NCBI GenBank assembly: GCA_027858855.1
Contig: JAQIBV010000054.1
Location: 1-64,000, forward strand
Reading direction: 5' to 3'
From: Spirochaetota bacterium
GTDB lineage: Bacteria > Spirochaetota > UBA4802 > JAFGJZ01
Length of the DNA: 64,000 nt
Under the pieces are notes generated by a model. It saw nothing but the letters and a program-made list of their open reading frames with translations, ran no database searches and had not been told where the DNA came from. The stretch's first letter is position 1. Each line of letters opens with the position of its first letter. This document shows, in pieces, positions 52,180-59,872 of the stretch. Both the position numbers and the translations under genes were made by a program.

Positions 52180-52459
52180 CTGTTATTCTTTCTGATTTTC
52201 AGGATAAGTTAGCATAAGTGAACATTTTTAAAATATTGCTTCAGGTGTCAACCGGTAAATTAAGGTCTGAAGTTTTCAATAAATCGGAACCCAGGATATT
52301 TTGTGAGCTGATTGGATTCCGTTGATGATTTAATAAAGATTTTAGATGTGTATGCGGATTTGATTCTCTTAAGACAGAAAGCGTTTGTGGAAGAAAGATA
52401 GTGGTTGACAAAAAAAATTTTTTCGATGTTGTGATATGATTATTCGGGAGGATAGCTCA

Positions 52460-53293
52460 ATGCAGGTACGCCAGGTCTGTTTCACTCTCTTTTTAACAAT
52501 TTTTATGTTTTTGTATACGGTATCCCTCGCGGCTGAAATTGAGCGTGGTGTTTTTGCTATGGGAACATATAGTCCTGTCGGCTTTTCTATAATGGGTCGG
52601 GTTCCATACAATTACGAGCCAAAAGGCAGTGCCGACACAAAACCGGATCCTGATGCTAAAATTAGTTCGCTTTCCGATTATTCTCTCGGAGCCGGTTATT
52701 TCCGAGGTCCCCTTATGGCCGATTTTCAATTCTATTCTACTTCAGTAGAAGATCAGAAAATAGATTTCGAAGAATACTTTCGTAATGAGTCTATTGAGTA
52801 TACTCTACGAACATTTGATATCAGATCGGGGTTACGTTTGTCTGATTACGGTAATCCGTCGTTTACATATATTCATCTTGGTTATCGCTATCTCTCATAT
52901 TCCAGCGATTATCTGAAAACCGAGTTGAGTGGACACGGCTTTACCGTCGGTTTAACAAAATTCCACACTTTTTTTCCCCGTTTTGATTTCGAGCCGGCTC
53001 TCTATTTTAATGCCTATCTTGGAAATTACCGAATTACCGGTTTTGAGTCTGACATGTCTTCTGGTGATTATGAACGGGAAAAATCTGTAACAGCCGGAGG
53101 TACCCTGGGTATTGGGGTTCACTTTGAGCCTTATAATCTGGCGGTTCTTGCTATAGTGCGTGGAGCAATTGATCAGATATCACATAATGTGCGAATAGAT
53201 GATGGATGGGTAGACTGCGGAGTACGTCACACCGGTTTTTATGCCGGGATCGCGGTAATGTATCAGCGTTATAATTTTAAGCATAACCGCTAA
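52460..53293 (+). CDS. Outer-membrane beta-barrel protein
   Basis: About 277 residues. GGGAGG before ATG 52460 and a signal peptide (VRQVCFTLFLTIFMFLYTVSLAA) set the start. The mature part alternates amphipathic strands with Tyr/Phe-rich ends (YFRGPLMADFQFYSTS, FTYIHLGYRYLSYS, FEPALYFNAYLGNY) and ends GFYAGIAVMYQRYNFKHNR, as in 8-12 strand barrels. First of four genes in an envelope operon with a TonB-domain lipoprotein, a TonB-dependent receptor and an OmpA protein. Exact role unknown. Confidence 0.72.
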   Translation: MQVRQVCFTLFLTIFMFLYTVSLAAEIERGVFAMGTYSPVGFSIMGRVPYNYEPKGSADTKPDPDAKISSLSDYSLGAGYFRGPLMADFQFYSTSVEDQKIDFEEYFRNESIEYTLRTFDIRSGLRLSDYGNPSFTYIHLGYRYLSYSSDYLKTELSGHGFTVGLTKFHTFFPRFDFEPALYFNAYLGNYRITGFESDMSSGDYEREKSVTAGGTLGIGVHFEPYNLAVLAIVRGAIDQISHNVRIDDGWVDCGVRHTGFYAGIAVMYQRYNFKHNR

Positions 53294-53308
53294 CAGGAGC
53301 AGATTGTA

Positions 53309-53749
53309 ATGAGAAAGCTGTTGGTCTTGATGTGTACCTTTTCTGTGTTTGCTGCGTCCTGCAGTTCCCGGCAGTATCAGACGCGGGATACTGTTGCCGG
53401 TGATAGTGAGCTGTTGAATTATGAATACAGTAACCACTTCTATTCGCACGAATTACGGAAAGAGCATTTTTTCCTGAATATTGAATTAAATCAGCCTGCA
53501 GTCATCGAATTTGCAGAAATAGATTTCGGCATGGTCGAAATTCATGCACCAATAACGGGAAGCTCTCTGGTTCGCATAACGGTTGATAGGAGTGGCCGGG
53601 TTATTCGATATAATGTTTTAAAATATGCAGGCGCAGGTCTTGATGACTATCTGGAAAAAGTGGCACGTGCGTCCCGGTTTCGGCCCGTAGAGCATCGTGA
53701 AGAACCACAGGAGTGTGATTTTATATTGAAAGTAGTTTTTAGGGAATGA
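53309..53749 (+). CDS. Lipoprotein with TonB C-terminal-like domain
   Basis: 146 residues. The signal MRKLLVLMCTFSVFAASC ends at a lipobox Cys. The last 75 residues look like a TonB C-terminal domain (SLVRITVDRSGRVIRYNVLKYAGAGLDDYLEKVARASRFRPVEH). Unlike normal TonB there is no membrane-spanning anchor coupled to ExbB and no Pro-rich linker. It lies directly before a TonB-dependent receptor gene with overlapping stop and possible start, so the two likely work together. Confidence 0.75.
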   Translation: MRKLLVLMCTFSVFAASCSSRQYQTRDTVAGDSELLNYEYSNHFYSHELRKEHFFLNIELNQPAVIEFAEIDFGMVEIHAPITGSSLVRITVDRSGRVIRYNVLKYAGAGLDDYLEKVARASRFRPVEHREEPQECDFILKVVFRE

Positions 53750-53754
53750 CCGCT

Positions 53755-55983
53755 ATGCGATATCTTTTAACTGTTTTTTTTCTTTTTGTATTTTTTCCAA
53801 TGGCTGCCGGTACAGTTTCCGGGCGTGTGACTGATATGTCAGGGCGACCCGTTTCTGGTCTTGTTGTCGGGCTTGAGGATAACTACTATACGTCCGAGAC
53901 CTCTTCTGATGGTAGTTTTCGTTTTGAGAATGTAGACCCAGGGGATTACACTCTTCATTTTTCAAATGGAACCTGGGGGCATCACCGTTACGGTATTCGT
54001 GTTAAGACAGATTTTCATGTTACACTAAAAATTGACAGAAAAATGAATACAAGCGAACCGCTGGTTTATCGCGAAACTGATGAGCCTTATAACACTCGAC
54101 AGGGTATAACACAGAATCAGATCATCACTTATCCCATGCGCGGTGTGGGTGACAGCCTGCATCTGCTACAGACTCTTCCGGGGGTAGGTGGTGGTTCTTC
54201 GGTATCAACAATTCCGATTATACGAAGTACTAACCCTCTCTTGAATAAGTATTATATAGATGGAATTCCAATCAACAATCCTTACCATTTTGCTGTCGGT
54301 TTTGTTCCTGTTATTTCGGCAATCAGCGATCCGGTAATAGATCATGTTATTTTGCACAAGGGGGATGCCCCTGTTAGCATGGGCGATCACGCCGGAAATG
54401 TAATTGATATACGAACTGTCGAACCTACACACACCGGTTTGCGTGGTTCGGTAATTCTTGATGGTTTTGTTCCTCTGCTACCAACAATGGCGGTTTCCGG
54501 CGTTGTTGATCCACGATGGTCTTTAGTTGCTGTGGGCAGGCGAAGCACTACAGATATTCTTCTTGATATCGCAGACAATAACTACATGCTTCAGGACTTT
54601 TATTTCAAGACAACCTATGTTCTTAACAGGTCTCATCGCTTTCGTCTTATTGCTAACGGTGCGAGTGAGACATTTAAGTGGGATGATTTTATTTCAGAAA
54701 GTGGATATAATCTTTTCGCTTTTCAGTGGGATTATCGTATAGCGCGAAATCTTTTTCTGACTACATCCATATCACGATATCAGGTCGCCAGGGATCTGAA
54801 CAATGACAAAGAAGATGGTGCATCCGTAATTTTCGATCCGGTCGAGTATAGACTGTATCAGGCCTTAACGGCGGGAATTGGTCGTTTTGCAGTAACCGGA
54901 GGTTATGAGTATACTTCATATATGAATGGCGCTAAAAGCAATATTTCGTTCAGTGGACTCGCAACACCGGACATTCTCTCGGCAGAGGCTGAAACACAGA
55001 CAACCGAATTTGCCATCGAGGGCAATGGTGTGCGACTTTTCGCCGATGTCTCAGGCCAATTTGACCGCTTCTGGTTTACTGTTGGAGCAAACTTTGATTA
55101 TTTCGGTGTTCAGGATAGCACGAATTACGGATATCAGAGTGAGGCCGGTGTTGTTCTGAGGAAAACTACGGCCATTTATGCAAAAGCGGGGCGTTTTATA
55201 GCACATCCTGATATGCTCTATTATCTGGGTGCTGTTGATTCAGATTCTGAAAACAGCGAATTGCTCACCCCGACTCATCTAGAAGATACAATTACAGATA
55301 CATATGCAGTTGGGCTTCAGAGCTCAGATTTTCTGCAGGTGAAGATGAGGGGTGAACTGTTTTACAGCATCTATCAAAATCTGTATCCTGGCGGAACGCT
55401 TGTAACTGTTAATGACGATTCGTTCAGAAAGGCGGCGCAACTGCATAAGTTTGCTCTTGAAGACGATGGGGACACAATGGGATTCGAGCTGAGCCTGTCC
55501 CGGAAATTTTTACGCAGATATAACTCTTCGCTTGCCTATACCTTTCAGACAACAACACGTAACAGAGATGATAATCTGTTTGTTGACCTTCTGGGTGACA
55601 ATGCAAAGGAGATCGAATCGGAGTATAGCCAAACACATATTTTAAGAATAATGGCGGCCGCACGTTTTGGGCCATGGGTTCCGGCTTTGCTCTTTAATGC
55701 CTACAGTTCGCTTCCATATACTGAAGTCAGTGGAACTCGCGAGATAGAGGGGCTGGGTACACAAACTCTGTATGGAAAAGAAAATGGTGCCCGATATCCA
55801 ATGCATCACCGGCTCGATTTTAAGGTCAACTATTATGCTTCAGAGTCGCTGAGGTTCTATGCTGAAATGTGGAATGTTTATTTGAACAGAGAAAATCAGG
55901 TTGCGGATTATAAAAATCGGTCACACCGAGAGGTGAATGACATACCTCTGTTTTTCTGGATGGGGATGGAACTATGTTTTTAA
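53755..55983 (+). CDS. TonB-dependent outer-membrane receptor
   Basis: About 742 residues. After the signal peptide comes a carboxypeptidase-regulatory-like domain (about 20-100; TVSGRVTDMSGRPVSGLVV, GSFRFENVDPGDYTLHF). A plug follows (about 120-230; LLQTLPGVGGGSSVSTIPIIRSTNPLLNKYYIDGIPI), then a 22-strand-type barrel to the end (LDFKVNYYASESLRFYAEMWNVYLN, final FFWMGMELCF). ATG 53755 has AGGGA nine bases upstream; an ATG at 53746 overlaps the previous stop but leaves no room for a ribosome site. There is no SusD partner. It would import a ligand using the proton motive force; the ligand is unknown. Confidence 0.88.
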   Translation: MRYLLTVFFLFVFFPMAAGTVSGRVTDMSGRPVSGLVVGLEDNYYTSETSSDGSFRFENVDPGDYTLHFSNGTWGHHRYGIRVKTDFHVTLKIDRKMNTSEPLVYRETDEPYNTRQGITQNQIITYPMRGVGDSLHLLQTLPGVGGGSSVSTIPIIRSTNPLLNKYYIDGIPINNPYHFAVGFVPVISAISDPVIDHVILHKGDAPVSMGDHAGNVIDIRTVEPTHTGLRGSVILDGFVPLLPTMAVSGVVDPRWSLVAVGRRSTTDILLDIADNNYMLQDFYFKTTYVLNRSHRFRLIANGASETFKWDDFISESGYNLFAFQWDYRIARNLFLTTSISRYQVARDLNNDKEDGASVIFDPVEYRLYQALTAGIGRFAVTGGYEYTSYMNGAKSNISFSGLATPDILSAEAETQTTEFAIEGNGVRLFADVSGQFDRFWFTVGANFDYFGVQDSTNYGYQSEAGVVLRKTTAIYAKAGRFIAHPDMLYYLGAVDSDSENSELLTPTHLEDTITDTYAVGLQSSDFLQVKMRGELFYSIYQNLYPGGTLVTVNDDSFRKAAQLHKFALEDDGDTMGFELSLSRKFLRRYNSSLAYTFQTTTRNRDDNLFVDLLGDNAKEIESEYSQTHILRIMAAARFGPWVPALLFNAYSSLPYTEVSGTREIEGLGTQTLYGKENGARYPMHHRLDFKVNYYASESLRFYAEMWNVYLNRENQVADYKNRSHREVNDIPLFFWMGMELCF

Positions 55984-57548
55984 AAATAATCGCATTGCTA
56001 ATTGTGTTTAACCTGACAATTTTGAGTGCAGGTGTATACGAAGTCCCCGGTCATTCTGAAGAGTCGTATCTGGCCGATGCAACAATACTTCGGTTAAAAA
56101 TGGCTAAGGAACCCGAGAATCCTGAGCATCATCGGTTGCTCATCATGTTTTTAATGTCTGTTGAGGAGTTTGAGTCTGCCGCACGTGAATGTTCCATATA
56201 TCTTGCGACTGGGCATGGTAGCAAAAAGGAGAATAGAGAGATAGAATATACCCGAATAATTGCTCTGGCCTCCTCTTCTCGGTATAAAGAGGCAATAGAA
56301 AGAACAGCTCTATATTTAAAAAAATACAAACATAGCGATGAAGACAGAGAATTCTTAAATCGTAAACGACGCCTCTACAGTCGAGCCCTTAAAACAAAAG
56401 GTGCTGTTTCGGGTTTGAAAATCATTGCAGAAAATGAGAGTGCCCTTGGCGTGGATGCCTCAAACGGAACTGTTATTACCTATAACCGGCTTTTAAATAA
56501 GATCGGTTTCCGTTATCTGGCCGATGGAAAAGTTGCTCTACCTGTTTTGCTTCCTCCTGACACTGACTCCGAATCTCTGATCAGCATAACAATCAGTAAA
56601 AACGGGAAAAGAGCTTTGGCCTCGTTTCGCGATGGTGACGGTGCAGTTATTGCAGAGAGCAGGTATGACTCAGGCTGGAGTGAGTGGAGTTTTGACAGCG
56701 AATTAAACCGTGGTTCTGTTAATGCCTATCCCTGTTTTATTCAGGGAGTAACAACACTTTTTTTTGTTACTAATCGTGTTGAGGGTAATGGTCTTGATAT
56801 CTATTATTCAGAATACTCACGTGATGGCTGGCAGAAGGCCCGCCCCGTAGAGGGTGTTAACAGTTCTGGCGATGAGGCTTCGGTATATGTACCTCTGGAT
56901 GGGAATCAACTCTTTTTCTCCAGTAATGGACGCCCGGGTCTTGGAGGGATTGATATCTATACCGGAAAACTAGAGCTCAAACCTGTCCCGACCGTTACGG
57001 TTGAACGCAATGTCGTTTCGGTTAATACTTTTCGCAATGAAATTACACCCCCCTATTTTACCACGGAGCTGCCGTTTTATACTGTAACACATGTTAATGC
57101 TGATAGAAGTTATCTTTATGGTGCTGATTCCCTTTGGACAGAAACCGGGAAGACCGTTGTTAAAAAAGTTGAAAAGCCAGCGGTAAAAATACCTGAGAGC
57201 GGCACCCTTGTTGCGCATGATCTTCAGTTTGATACCGGTTCGGCCTACATAAGACCTTCATCGTACAGGTTTCTTGAACAGCTTGCTTTATACATGAAGA
57301 ATAATCCCAGTAAGGGTATTATTATTAATGGTCATACAGACAGTGTCGGAACTGAAGAGGTGAACAGACGGCTTTCACTGAATCGTGCCCGTGCAGTTGC
57401 TCGCTACCTTATCCGTAATGGCATAGCCGCCGACCGTATACGTACTAACGGTCTTGGCACATCTGAAAATATAGAGAGTAATGATACAGAAGAGGGGCGT
57501 CAAAAAAACCGGCGTGTAGAGATCTCGTTTTTTGATCTGGGTGCTTAG
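55974..57548 (+). CDS. PD40 beta-propeller / OmpA-domain protein
   Basis: A 524-residue exported protein. An N-terminal signal is followed by a helical TPR-like region (about 25-150), a PD40-type beta-propeller part (about 190-340; SISKNGKRALASFRDGDG, DEASVYVPLDGNQLFFSSNGRPGLGGIDIY), and a C-terminal OmpA domain (about 405-520; LQFDTGSAYIRPSS, GHTDSVGTEEVNRRLSLNRARAVARYL, ENRRVEI-like KNRRVEISFF) that binds peptidoglycan. The start overlaps the receptor gene by 10 bases. It likely anchors the operon's outer-membrane complex to the cell wall. Confidence 0.85.
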   Translation: MFLKIIALLIVFNLTILSAGVYEVPGHSEESYLADATILRLKMAKEPENPEHHRLLIMFLMSVEEFESAARECSIYLATGHGSKKENREIEYTRIIALASSSRYKEAIERTALYLKKYKHSDEDREFLNRKRRLYSRALKTKGAVSGLKIIAENESALGVDASNGTVITYNRLLNKIGFRYLADGKVALPVLLPPDTDSESLISITISKNGKRALASFRDGDGAVIAESRYDSGWSEWSFDSELNRGSVNAYPCFIQGVTTLFFVTNRVEGNGLDIYYSEYSRDGWQKARPVEGVNSSGDEASVYVPLDGNQLFFSSNGRPGLGGIDIYTGKLELKPVPTVTVERNVVSVNTFRNEITPPYFTTELPFYTVTHVNADRSYLYGADSLWTETGKTVVKKVEKPAVKIPESGTLVAHDLQFDTGSAYIRPSSYRFLEQLALYMKNNPSKGIIINGHTDSVGTEEVNRRLSLNRARAVARYLIRNGIAADRIRTNGLGTSENIESNDTEEGRQKNRRVEISFFDLGA

Positions 57549-57692: not shown

Positions 57693-57787
57693 GATCTTTA
57701 AGATGTTTATAATCGGTAAGGAATCAGGATATAAAAAATTTTACTCAAAACAGTTAAATGCCTGTTTTGAGTAAATGCGGAGGTTTT

Positions 57788-59872
57788 ATGAGTAAATATG
57801 TAAAGTATATTCTTCTAGTTATTATTGGCTTTGGAATGCTGGTCGGATGCGATGGCTGTTATGACGATGAGACAACAGATAAGGTTGATGCCCCGAATTT
57901 CACCCTTTTGCGTGGCACAAACTACGATGTTGTACTCTCATCACATACTAAAGGAGCGACCATTCTTTATACTATAGATGGTACTGATCCAAAGACAAGT
58001 AATACGGCTGTTGACGGAACTGAGTTAACAATCGATTTTTTTACTCAGATTCGAGCCTATGCCTATAAGAAGGGGAAGCGTGATTCTTTGACAGTCAGCT
58101 TCTCTTTGCCAAAATTCGGAGCTAAAAGAAAGGTCTTTTATAATGCTGATTATACTGTAAAATCATATATTAGCTCTTCTAAAGACTGTAACAATAAAAG
58201 AAAACTGGAAGTATTCCGCTCTGCTAAAGGGAGTGATGAACAGTGGTTCACATGGGACGATTCAATTGATTATTATAAACTGTATATCTACGATCAGGAT
58301 ACCTTGACAACCTGTGTGAAATATAATGGCTCAGGTTCTGATGGTGACTGGTTTACTGAAGACGATGACGAAGATGTATCGTATAATGTAACTATTGCTG
58401 ATAATGATTACAGCTATGATGGGGAATATACTGAATCATTTGATGATAAAATGAATCTTTTAGAAACTAATGAATATTCGGATGGCCCTTACCAGTATAC
58501 CTATTCAGGACGTAATCCGGTTGATTTTAAAGACGGAGCAGGAAACACACTCCTCTATCAGCTTGAAGGAAATCAGGAGTACTACTATCTTTATGAAAAC
58601 AACAGTGCTGGAAAACCAGATCGCAAAGTGAAATATCGTGGTTATGGAACAGATACTGACTTTGGTTATACTGATAACAGCTATGATGCTGATGGAAATC
58701 TTATCACATCAACCTATTATTGGGACAATGCCGGTAAATATCCGCGCGCGCACTATGTATATGAATATGATCAGGGTAAACTGGTTATTGAATCTAAGTA
58801 TAAACATACCGATTTAGCTAAATTGAGACTTCGCCGTGAATTCGAATACGATGCTGAAGGTCGTCTGTTCAGGGTGGATTTTTTTGACAAGGAAAGCAAC
58901 CGGGAGATGTATGAGGAGTATACCTATAACGGTGACTCTACTGCATCCATGACCCGCTATTTAAGGCCGGCTGTCGCTTCCAAGAACCTTGTGTTCGAGT
59001 TTACCGTTACTGCAAACGTAGTGGATGGTGGTTATTTTGTTTATGCCGGTGGAAAGTTTGATCATGAAGGTGATCCTATTAAGGATATTGTCGATCTTGG
59101 TGAGGATGAAAAAGAGTTTATTGCGAATATGACAGAGAAAGTTCGTGATATTATTAAAAACGTTAAGCTTTCAAGTGCATCTGTAACCTTGAATGGAGCT
59201 TTTGGCGGTGATGCAAAGATACTGGTTGCTACCTATGATAATACAATAAATATAGTTTTTGAGTTTAATAATTATAACGATGGTGATATAATCATAAACG
59301 GTACAATCGATAAAGAGCTTACTGGAACGATTGATGTTTCCGGAGAGCTGAGCGGAGGCGAGGCTGCTGGAAACGGTTTTGTTTATGGTGAACTTATGAT
59401 TGCCGATGCTAATCCGGATATTACGGATGAGGACTATATTGTTTCAGCTTATACCTCTATCGATCTGGATGCTAATGATAATCCGGTTAAAGAGACAGAG
59501 TATTATACTCCGGGAGCAGACGGGGCGTGGGATACTATCGGTGATAATAGTGTGAAGTATGTGACCAACTACCAATACACTGATACTATTCTTACAGAGA
59601 AGGTTCGATATAATAAAACTGTGGCCGATTCAAATCTAAATTACAGAATAGTCTACGAACTTAATGGAGATATTGTCGAAAAAGAGACTGTTACGCGAAA
59701 TTATGGTGCATACGGAATTCAGGATGCTGGCAGTACTAACGAGACACTCGAGCATTATCGTTGCTGGAGCGATCTTTGGGATATTCAGCAGAGATGGGAA
59801 ATCGACTGGGACGATGAGTACTGGAACGAAGACGTCGATAAAAAAGACAGGGTTGAGTGGTCTGTAGAGTAG
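57788..59872 (+). CDS. Large acidic lipoprotein with chitobiase-like and YD-like repeats
   Basis: About 694 residues. GGAGG precedes ATG 57788; the signal ends LVGC. The first 90 mature residues resemble the chitobiase C-terminal-like beta-sandwich (HTKGATILYTIDGTDPKTSNTA, QIRAYAYKKGKRDS). The rest is rich in Asp, Tyr and Thr with loose repeats of the form G-x-D-x-x-W-x-T-x-D-D followed by Tyr-rich strands (GSDGDWFTEDDDED, GSDEQWFTWDDSID, GADGAWDTIGDNS). It is probably an outer-surface protein; the repeats could bind calcium. It is similar in style to the lipoprotein at 34784-35728. No function can be named. Confidence 0.72.
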   Translation: MSKYVKYILLVIIGFGMLVGCDGCYDDETTDKVDAPNFTLLRGTNYDVVLSSHTKGATILYTIDGTDPKTSNTAVDGTELTIDFFTQIRAYAYKKGKRDSLTVSFSLPKFGAKRKVFYNADYTVKSYISSSKDCNNKRKLEVFRSAKGSDEQWFTWDDSIDYYKLYIYDQDTLTTCVKYNGSGSDGDWFTEDDDEDVSYNVTIADNDYSYDGEYTESFDDKMNLLETNEYSDGPYQYTYSGRNPVDFKDGAGNTLLYQLEGNQEYYYLYENNSAGKPDRKVKYRGYGTDTDFGYTDNSYDADGNLITSTYYWDNAGKYPRAHYVYEYDQGKLVIESKYKHTDLAKLRLRREFEYDAEGRLFRVDFFDKESNREMYEEYTYNGDSTASMTRYLRPAVASKNLVFEFTVTANVVDGGYFVYAGGKFDHEGDPIKDIVDLGEDEKEFIANMTEKVRDIIKNVKLSSASVTLNGAFGGDAKILVATYDNTINIVFEFNNYNDGDIIINGTIDKELTGTIDVSGELSGGEAAGNGFVYGELMIADANPDITDEDYIVSAYTSIDLDANDNPVKETEYYTPGADGAWDTIGDNSVKYVTNYQYTDTILTEKVRYNKTVADSNLNYRIVYELNGDIVEKETVTRNYGAYGIQDAGSTNETLEHYRCWSDLWDIQQRWEIDWDDEYWNEDVDKKDRVEWSVE

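Follow-up and report, generated by a model that had tools for sequence, protein, structure and literature searches.

The stretch of DNA analysed here (the window) comprises 64,000 nucleotides of a Spirochaetota bacterium (assembly GCA_027858855.1, contig JAQIBV010000054.1, positions 1 to 64,000), and corresponds to contig C44 of a genome of 3.35 Mb in 63 contigs. Open reading frame calls bore out an operon of four tightly packed genes at positions 52460-57548:

52460..53293, + strand: gene 1, secreted protein of 277 residues, a probable small outer-membrane beta-barrel
53309..53749, + strand: gene 2, lipoprotein of 146 residues with a TonB C-terminal domain
53746..55983, + strand: gene 3, TonB-dependent-transporter-like protein with Pfam CarboxypepD_reg and Plug matches
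55974..57548, + strand: gene 4, secreted PorE-like protein with TPR-like, PD40 and OmpA parts

The coupling of the four genes claimed in the first-pass annotation of this DNA was confirmed: an ATGA is common to genes 2 and 3, and genes 3 and 4 overlap by 10 bp. A comparable overlap of a few bases occurs between genes 3 and 4 in those fetched orthologous loci that have both. The ORF tool placed the start of gene 1 at 52436, and the ATG at 52460, which follows a GGGAGG, looks like the true start; gene 3 has an alternative start at the ATG at 53755. Scans of the DNA gave 12 promoter-like sites (12.5 expected) and seven terminator-like sites (4.7 expected), none of which was used. A separate downstream gene at 57758-59872 encodes a putative lipoprotein of 704 residues with chitobiase C-terminal and Fn3-associated domains; among the neighbourhoods printed, its orthologue was noticed adjoining the operon only in the same genus (L018:2724-4808).

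The gene order, whose conservation in relatives had been proposed as a check, is kept in 13 Spirochaetota genomes from two taxonomic orders. All four genes were found in 11 of these, counting genome G121, whose receptor is split into two frames. The operon of G137 is cut by a contig end after the receptor, and the contig of G202 ends inside the lipoprotein, of which only a 33-residue fragment matches. In the window's own taxonomic order the arrangement was read in eight further loci (L018-L022 and L058-L060), and the other order contributes four genomes (G137, G121, G054 and G202), with all four genes present in G121 and G054. The two receptor frames of G121 overlap (L178:2974-5243) and the G054 copy is whole, such that the split represents either decay or an assembly error. 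Wherever gene 2 is complete it encodes a short lipoprotein (12 of 12 loci). A first lipoprotein profile searched against 392 Spirochaetota genomes produced nine clear full-length matches and one in G137 at E 9e-5, the remaining rows of the 40 matching genomes being mostly partial matches in longer frames. Within the taxonomic order of G137, a lipoprotein match was present in four of 18 genomes.

The gene 2 product has two features beyond its lipid anchor:

53414..53425, + strand: conserved LNYE motif within the linker that joins the lipid anchor to the TonB domain
53492..53746, + strand: TonB C-terminal domain, residues 62-146, without YP motif (VIA-align and alignment)

Its N-terminus is a short signal peptide with the lipobox FAASC, in which the cysteine is Cys18. 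This cysteine is invariant in all 12 orthologues and is preceded by serine in seven, glycine in three, and asparagine and tyrosine in one each. The signal peptide ends at the lipobox cysteine in each of the 12, and none has a membrane helix for ExbB-ExbD, so the earlier description of a lipobox in place of the usual helix held throughout. None of the 12 has an aspartate directly after the cysteine. In E. coli, lipoproteins without an aspartate at that position are sorted to the outer membrane, and by this rule the gene 2 product, a putative lipoprotein, is predicted to reside there.

Several analyses bear on the identity of the C-terminal domain. The Pfam TonB_C family (PF03544) matched gene 2 weakly, at 25.0 bits for a cut-off of 24.6, and matched nine of 10 orthologues at E 0.1 or better. 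Profile-profile comparison (hhalign) of the 12 lipoproteins with 42 Spirochaetota TonB C-termini, a set that includes two spurious rows (L225 and L228, both frames on the opposite strand), gave a probability of 96.6 and E 5e-10. An earlier set of C-terminal domains, in which at least three of 16 rows were mis-framed, was replaced, with its profile still used to collect the TonBs. The AlphaFold model of gene 2 had a mean pLDDT of 66.5, with about 80 over most of the domain and less than 50 over linker residues 18-51. The best Foldseek match of the model was 9dc4_T (E 0.0077), and VIA-align gave middling Z scores of 7.5 to 9dc4_T, 7.1 to 6i97_D and 6.6 to 2gsk_B; the top 19 rows were TonB, TonB-like or TolA, and unrelated rows had Z scores of 2.5 or less. 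A domain that does not fold like TonB had been named as the outcome that would count against the annotation; this did not occur, the best PDB matches all being TonB C-terminal domains. Together, profile comparison and structure prediction indicate that the C-terminal domain of gene 2 is a TonB C-terminal fold, as first described. PDB searches by sequence were of no help: a single lipoprotein as query returned nothing, and the lipoprotein alignment returned T4 lysozyme (E 0.05) as well as TonB (E 0.075), a result unusable alone.

The lipoproteins lack other features of a full TonB. None of the 12 domains opens with a YP-type motif, which is present in 31 of the 42 Spirochaetota TonB rows (two of the 42 being spurious), and the 60 residues from the cysteine contain only one to four prolines in the 12 proteins, which is not a proline-rich periplasmic spacer. 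The nearest full-length TonB by phmmer was L235 (a 250-residue frame on contig C19 of G202) for six of the 12, with E values down to 2.7e-10. The C-terminal domain is common to such Spirochaetota TonBs and the lipoprotein, but the latter has a lipobox in place of the helix, spacer and YP motif. In the linker, L36 and Y38 of the LNYE motif are nearly invariant in the 12-row alignment, and the motif is a candidate docking peptide.

The lipoprotein also matches positions 2-84 of the NCBIfam model for MxcH-type receptors (NF038079, E 8.7e-9), in which TonB_C is followed by the receptor in one protein. Unlike the MxcH type, there are two genes here at all loci with a complete gene 2. We considered TonB_C-receptor fusions as a Rosetta stone and rejected them, as the long spanning frames carry stop codons and are adjacent genes; no fused TonB_C-receptor without inner stops was among the matches listed in the MxcH search of the 392 Spirochaetota genomes. 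The match of the lipoprotein to the MxcH model therefore says TonB_C only.

Three segments were distinguished in the N-terminal part of the receptor:

53812..54027, + strand: N-terminal extension, CarboxypepD_reg (PF13620) by Pfam
54052..54093, + strand: segment matching the place of the TonB box in paralogues, box not recognisable (alignment and profile)
54100..54393, + strand: plug domain with the conserved motif PMRGxGDSxHLLQTLPG (Pfam and alignment)

The CarboxypepD_reg match scored 46 bits, and the Plug match 20.2 bits in one scan (cut-off 23.9) and 23.9 bits, marked as over the cut-off, in another. The structural model of the receptor is of low confidence (pLDDT 57.8); its DSSP line contains about 22 barrel strands, and it matches the TonB-dependent transporters PirA, Cir and BtuB at E values of 4e-16 to 9e-16 (PirA 4e-16). 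The Plug matches and the fold match of this low-confidence model point to a plug inside a 22-strand barrel, in agreement with the earlier assignment of gene 3 as a TonB-dependent receptor with a carboxypeptidase-regulatory-like domain. The penultimate residue of the receptor (window 55972-55980) is a cysteine in seven of 10 aligned receptors (ELCF, ELCI, EICF), which is unusual for the last strand of a barrel.

In Spirochaetota paralogues of gene 3, a TonB box (e.g., LTITGERD) lies about 27 residues ahead of the plug motif, and a box is also recognisable in many Bacteroidota relatives. Mean pairwise identity over the box window (positions -28 to -15 relative to the plug proline) was 0.14 in nine operon receptors versus 0.45 in 15 paralogues; over the plug motif it was 0.77 versus 0.72. 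With a profile of the paralogue box, no operon receptor out of 12 outscored the highest of 300 shuffles (best receptor 7.9, null maximum 11.0), and the same profile detected 13 of the 15 paralogues in leave-one-out tests and five of five further paralogues. The two box-bearing paralogues that failed the leave-one-out test, L192 and L025, have a box visible by eye. The plug motif is degenerate in the operon receptors of G054, G137 and G202, which, having no plug anchor, were left out of the identity comparison and kept in the profile test and the tree described below; none of the three analyses includes the broken receptor of G121 (L178). The box-bearing receptors L191 and L196-L199, also without the anchor motif, were scored separately with the profile and are not in the identity comparison. 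A crude box pattern for Bacteroidota receptors, which matched 37 of 75, was too strict, as some of the misses have a visible box, and was not used.

The nearest receptors beyond the operon clade belong to the same phylum in profile searches, followed by those of Bacteroidota. In a tree of 41 receptors with the box columns removed, a tree in which long branches meet (a warning was given) and only nine Bacteroidota receptors were used, the 12 operon receptors grouped together with an SH-aLRT of 76. Loss of the box on the operon-receptor branch would be the simplest reading of these data, with the root and the weak support leaving room for error.

The lack of a recognisable box, which the first-pass annotation did not note, alters the interpretation of the operon. 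A box that is undetectable in 12 of 12 receptors may persist in cryptic form. A 2024 review states that local secondary structure matters more than side chains for the activity of the TonB box (PMC11658791), and decay of the sequence thus does not prove loss of function. Under such a scheme, gene 3 would encode an ordinary TonB-dependent transporter driven by a full TonB, with the lipoprotein merely regulating it. For example, the lipoprotein might cover the receptor N-terminus until substrate binds, by analogy with the signalling domain of FecA, which according to the same review blocks the box of that receptor. Such a transporter would accord with the conservation of plug and barrel in nine of the 12 operon receptors. 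However, the low identity of the segment holds even inside the operon clade, and the boxes of the paralogues are conserved, and we therefore regard this alternative as unlikely.

Gene 1 is conserved in 13 loci, and its product is aromatic-rich and amphipathic, with no hydrophobic helix past the signal peptide. These properties favor the barrel label that gene 1 had been given, but OMP_b-brl (PF13505) matched just one of 10 orthologues (E 1.5e-4), and the label is only moderately supported. The assignment of gene 4 as a PD40/OmpA protein was upheld, with the PD40 match being weak in the window protein:

56859..56960, + strand: PD40 (WD40-like) repeat, E 0.019 in the window protein, matched in eight of nine orthologues
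57228..57512, + strand: OmpA peptidoglycan-binding domain, 84 bits, present in eight of 11 orthologues scanned

In the other three gene 4 orthologues, all of one family, the C-terminus is different. The idea that the OmpA protein ties the system to the cell wall consequently does not stand as a general rule, since the link is not universal. In these three (L058:9364-11277, L059:9414-11345 and L060:3777-5690) a domain of about 150 residues replaces the OmpA end, and that of L058, scanned alone, had no Pfam match.

The architecture of gene 4, with a TPR-like start, a PD40 propeller, an extra domain and an OmpA end, is like that of PorE of Bacteroidota. According to a 2025 paper (PMC12204202), PorE is a CpoB-TolB-carboxypeptidase-Pal fusion, and a TolA/TonB-like protein may set it in motion. 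Gene 4 matched the NCBIfam model T9SS_PorE (NF052230) at E 1.4e-28, but with 99.6 bits it is far below the cut-off of 600. It also differs from PorE in that the window protein has no lipobox and the OmpA end is not found in every orthologue.

The neighborhoods of the paralogues show what occupies the place of gene 2 elsewhere. A TonB-domain gene lies directly upstream of 11 of 20 box-bearing Spirochaetota receptors, and 10 of these 11 TonBs have a clear N-terminal hydrophobic helix, the L193 frame as called starting late. One more box-bearing receptor has a TonB-domain gene downstream (L219), and for some of the remaining receptors the flank was only 1.5 kb. From these neighborhoods, the same place holds a lipoprotein here and a full TonB in many paralogues. 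A full TonB with membrane helix at this place in relatives had been named as evidence against the proposal; it was seen in paralogous operons only, and in none of the 12 orthologous loci in which gene 2 is complete.

These surveys produced two further observations. On contig C150 of G002 (L213:4847-5515), a secreted protein of 222 residues, with no membrane helix past the signal peptide, lies between a full TonB and its receptor; it is a chimera in which the CarboxypepD_reg extension of that receptor is joined to a TonB C-terminal domain. It is a second TonB domain cut loose from its motor and probably arose by tandem duplication. In addition, box-bearing receptors in this phylum often have as neighbors paired short putative lipoproteins, each of about 115-170 residues, that look mutually related (L216, L217, L219 and L220).

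Among the closest known counterparts is Oar of Myxococcus xanthus, which, as described in PMC6434023, likewise has a CarboxypepD_reg extension, a plug and a 22-strand barrel. In that account the TonB box of Oar is important for secretion and its TonB is membrane-anchored. The paralogous operons of the Spirochaetota, such as that on contig C49 of the window genome, where a box-bearing receptor shares an operon with TonB, ExbB and two ExbD, resemble Oar and its Ton system. By contrast, the operon receptor has no recognisable box and its TonB is a short lipoprotein. In the literature searched, we found no account of a lipoprotein with a TonB domain that is paired with a receptor lacking the box.

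At none of the 13 loci was a motor gene (ExbB, ExbD or TonB) seen beside the receptor in the operon. The search for exbB/exbD and a classical tonB elsewhere in the genome, another of the checks proposed, found them in the C49 operon, and the cell therefore does possess TonB. ExbD and other TonB_C matches were present in all 13 operon genomes, and we consequently rejected the missing motor as proof of independence. In 12 of the 13, a TonB_C match exceeds the cut-off, covers the start of the domain and lies in a frame of at least 200 residues, the only listed match of G003 being partial. Because of these matches, powered coupling by another TonB, acting through the lipoprotein or gene 4, is possible. 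In such an arrangement the lipoprotein would relay to the receptor the pull of an inner-membrane TonB or TolA that grips either the lipoprotein itself or gene 4, making a box on the receptor needless. The conserved LNYE motif could serve as a docking strand, and the CpoB/TolB/Pal-like parts of gene 4 would fit with the proposed movement of PorE. As the operon itself has no motor gene, we consider an adaptor of this kind improbable.

It is very doubtful that the operon is a decayed relic that is losing transport and conserves only a structural tether between outer membrane and cell wall, since, despite the degenerate plug motifs, the G121 receptor in two frames and the retention of OmpA in most gene 4 orthologues, the plug in nine of 12 receptors is as conserved as in box-bearing paralogues, and one lineage keeps the plug and the lipoprotein yet has no OmpA domain.

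The explanation we propose instead, and to which we assign an even chance, is that the four genes specify an outer-membrane complex, with the TonB domain as its resident accessory subunit and with a receptor that no longer uses ordinary coupling through the TonB box. Such a complex would have been assembled from rearranged Ton and Tol-Pal parts. Its receptor would descend from receptors of the Oar kind, with a CarboxypepD_reg extension, TonB box, plug and barrel, encoded behind a membrane-anchored TonB. In the operon lineage, the TonB partner gene would have been reduced to encoding a C-terminal domain that is secreted and lipid-anchored, with the TonB box of the receptor having decayed. The TonB domain would then most likely sit permanently beneath the receptor, beside the N-terminal extension and plug, stabilising or gating it, and the pull of ExbB-ExbD-TonB via the TonB box would not operate on this receptor. 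The TPR/PD40 protein encoded by gene 4 may arrange the complex from the periplasm and tie it to the cell wall where OmpA is kept. We hold more tentatively, as something rather short of an even chance, the fuller picture of a Ton module that has moved off the inner membrane, with a lipoprotein subunit, a box-less receptor without the ExbB-ExbD-TonB pull and possibly a role as a tether or export channel with a TolB/Pal-like partner.

We conclude that the operon is a real, conserved variant of the Ton system, and that the odds on the mechanism proposed for it are about even. These data suggest that a well-known import machine exists here in a detached and possibly unpowered form. The 2024 review describes the TonB box as present in all TonB-dependent transporters (PMC11658791). 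A conserved lineage with an unrecognisable box and a lipoprotein TonB domain would represent a case in which grip domain and motor have been separated naturally, and the interest of the operon lies in the joint occurrence of box loss and a TonB domain on a lipid anchor. If the proposal is true, the effect of a TonB domain on the plug would be directly testable without energy. The joining of Ton and Tol-Pal parts in one operon also bears on the evolution of both systems.
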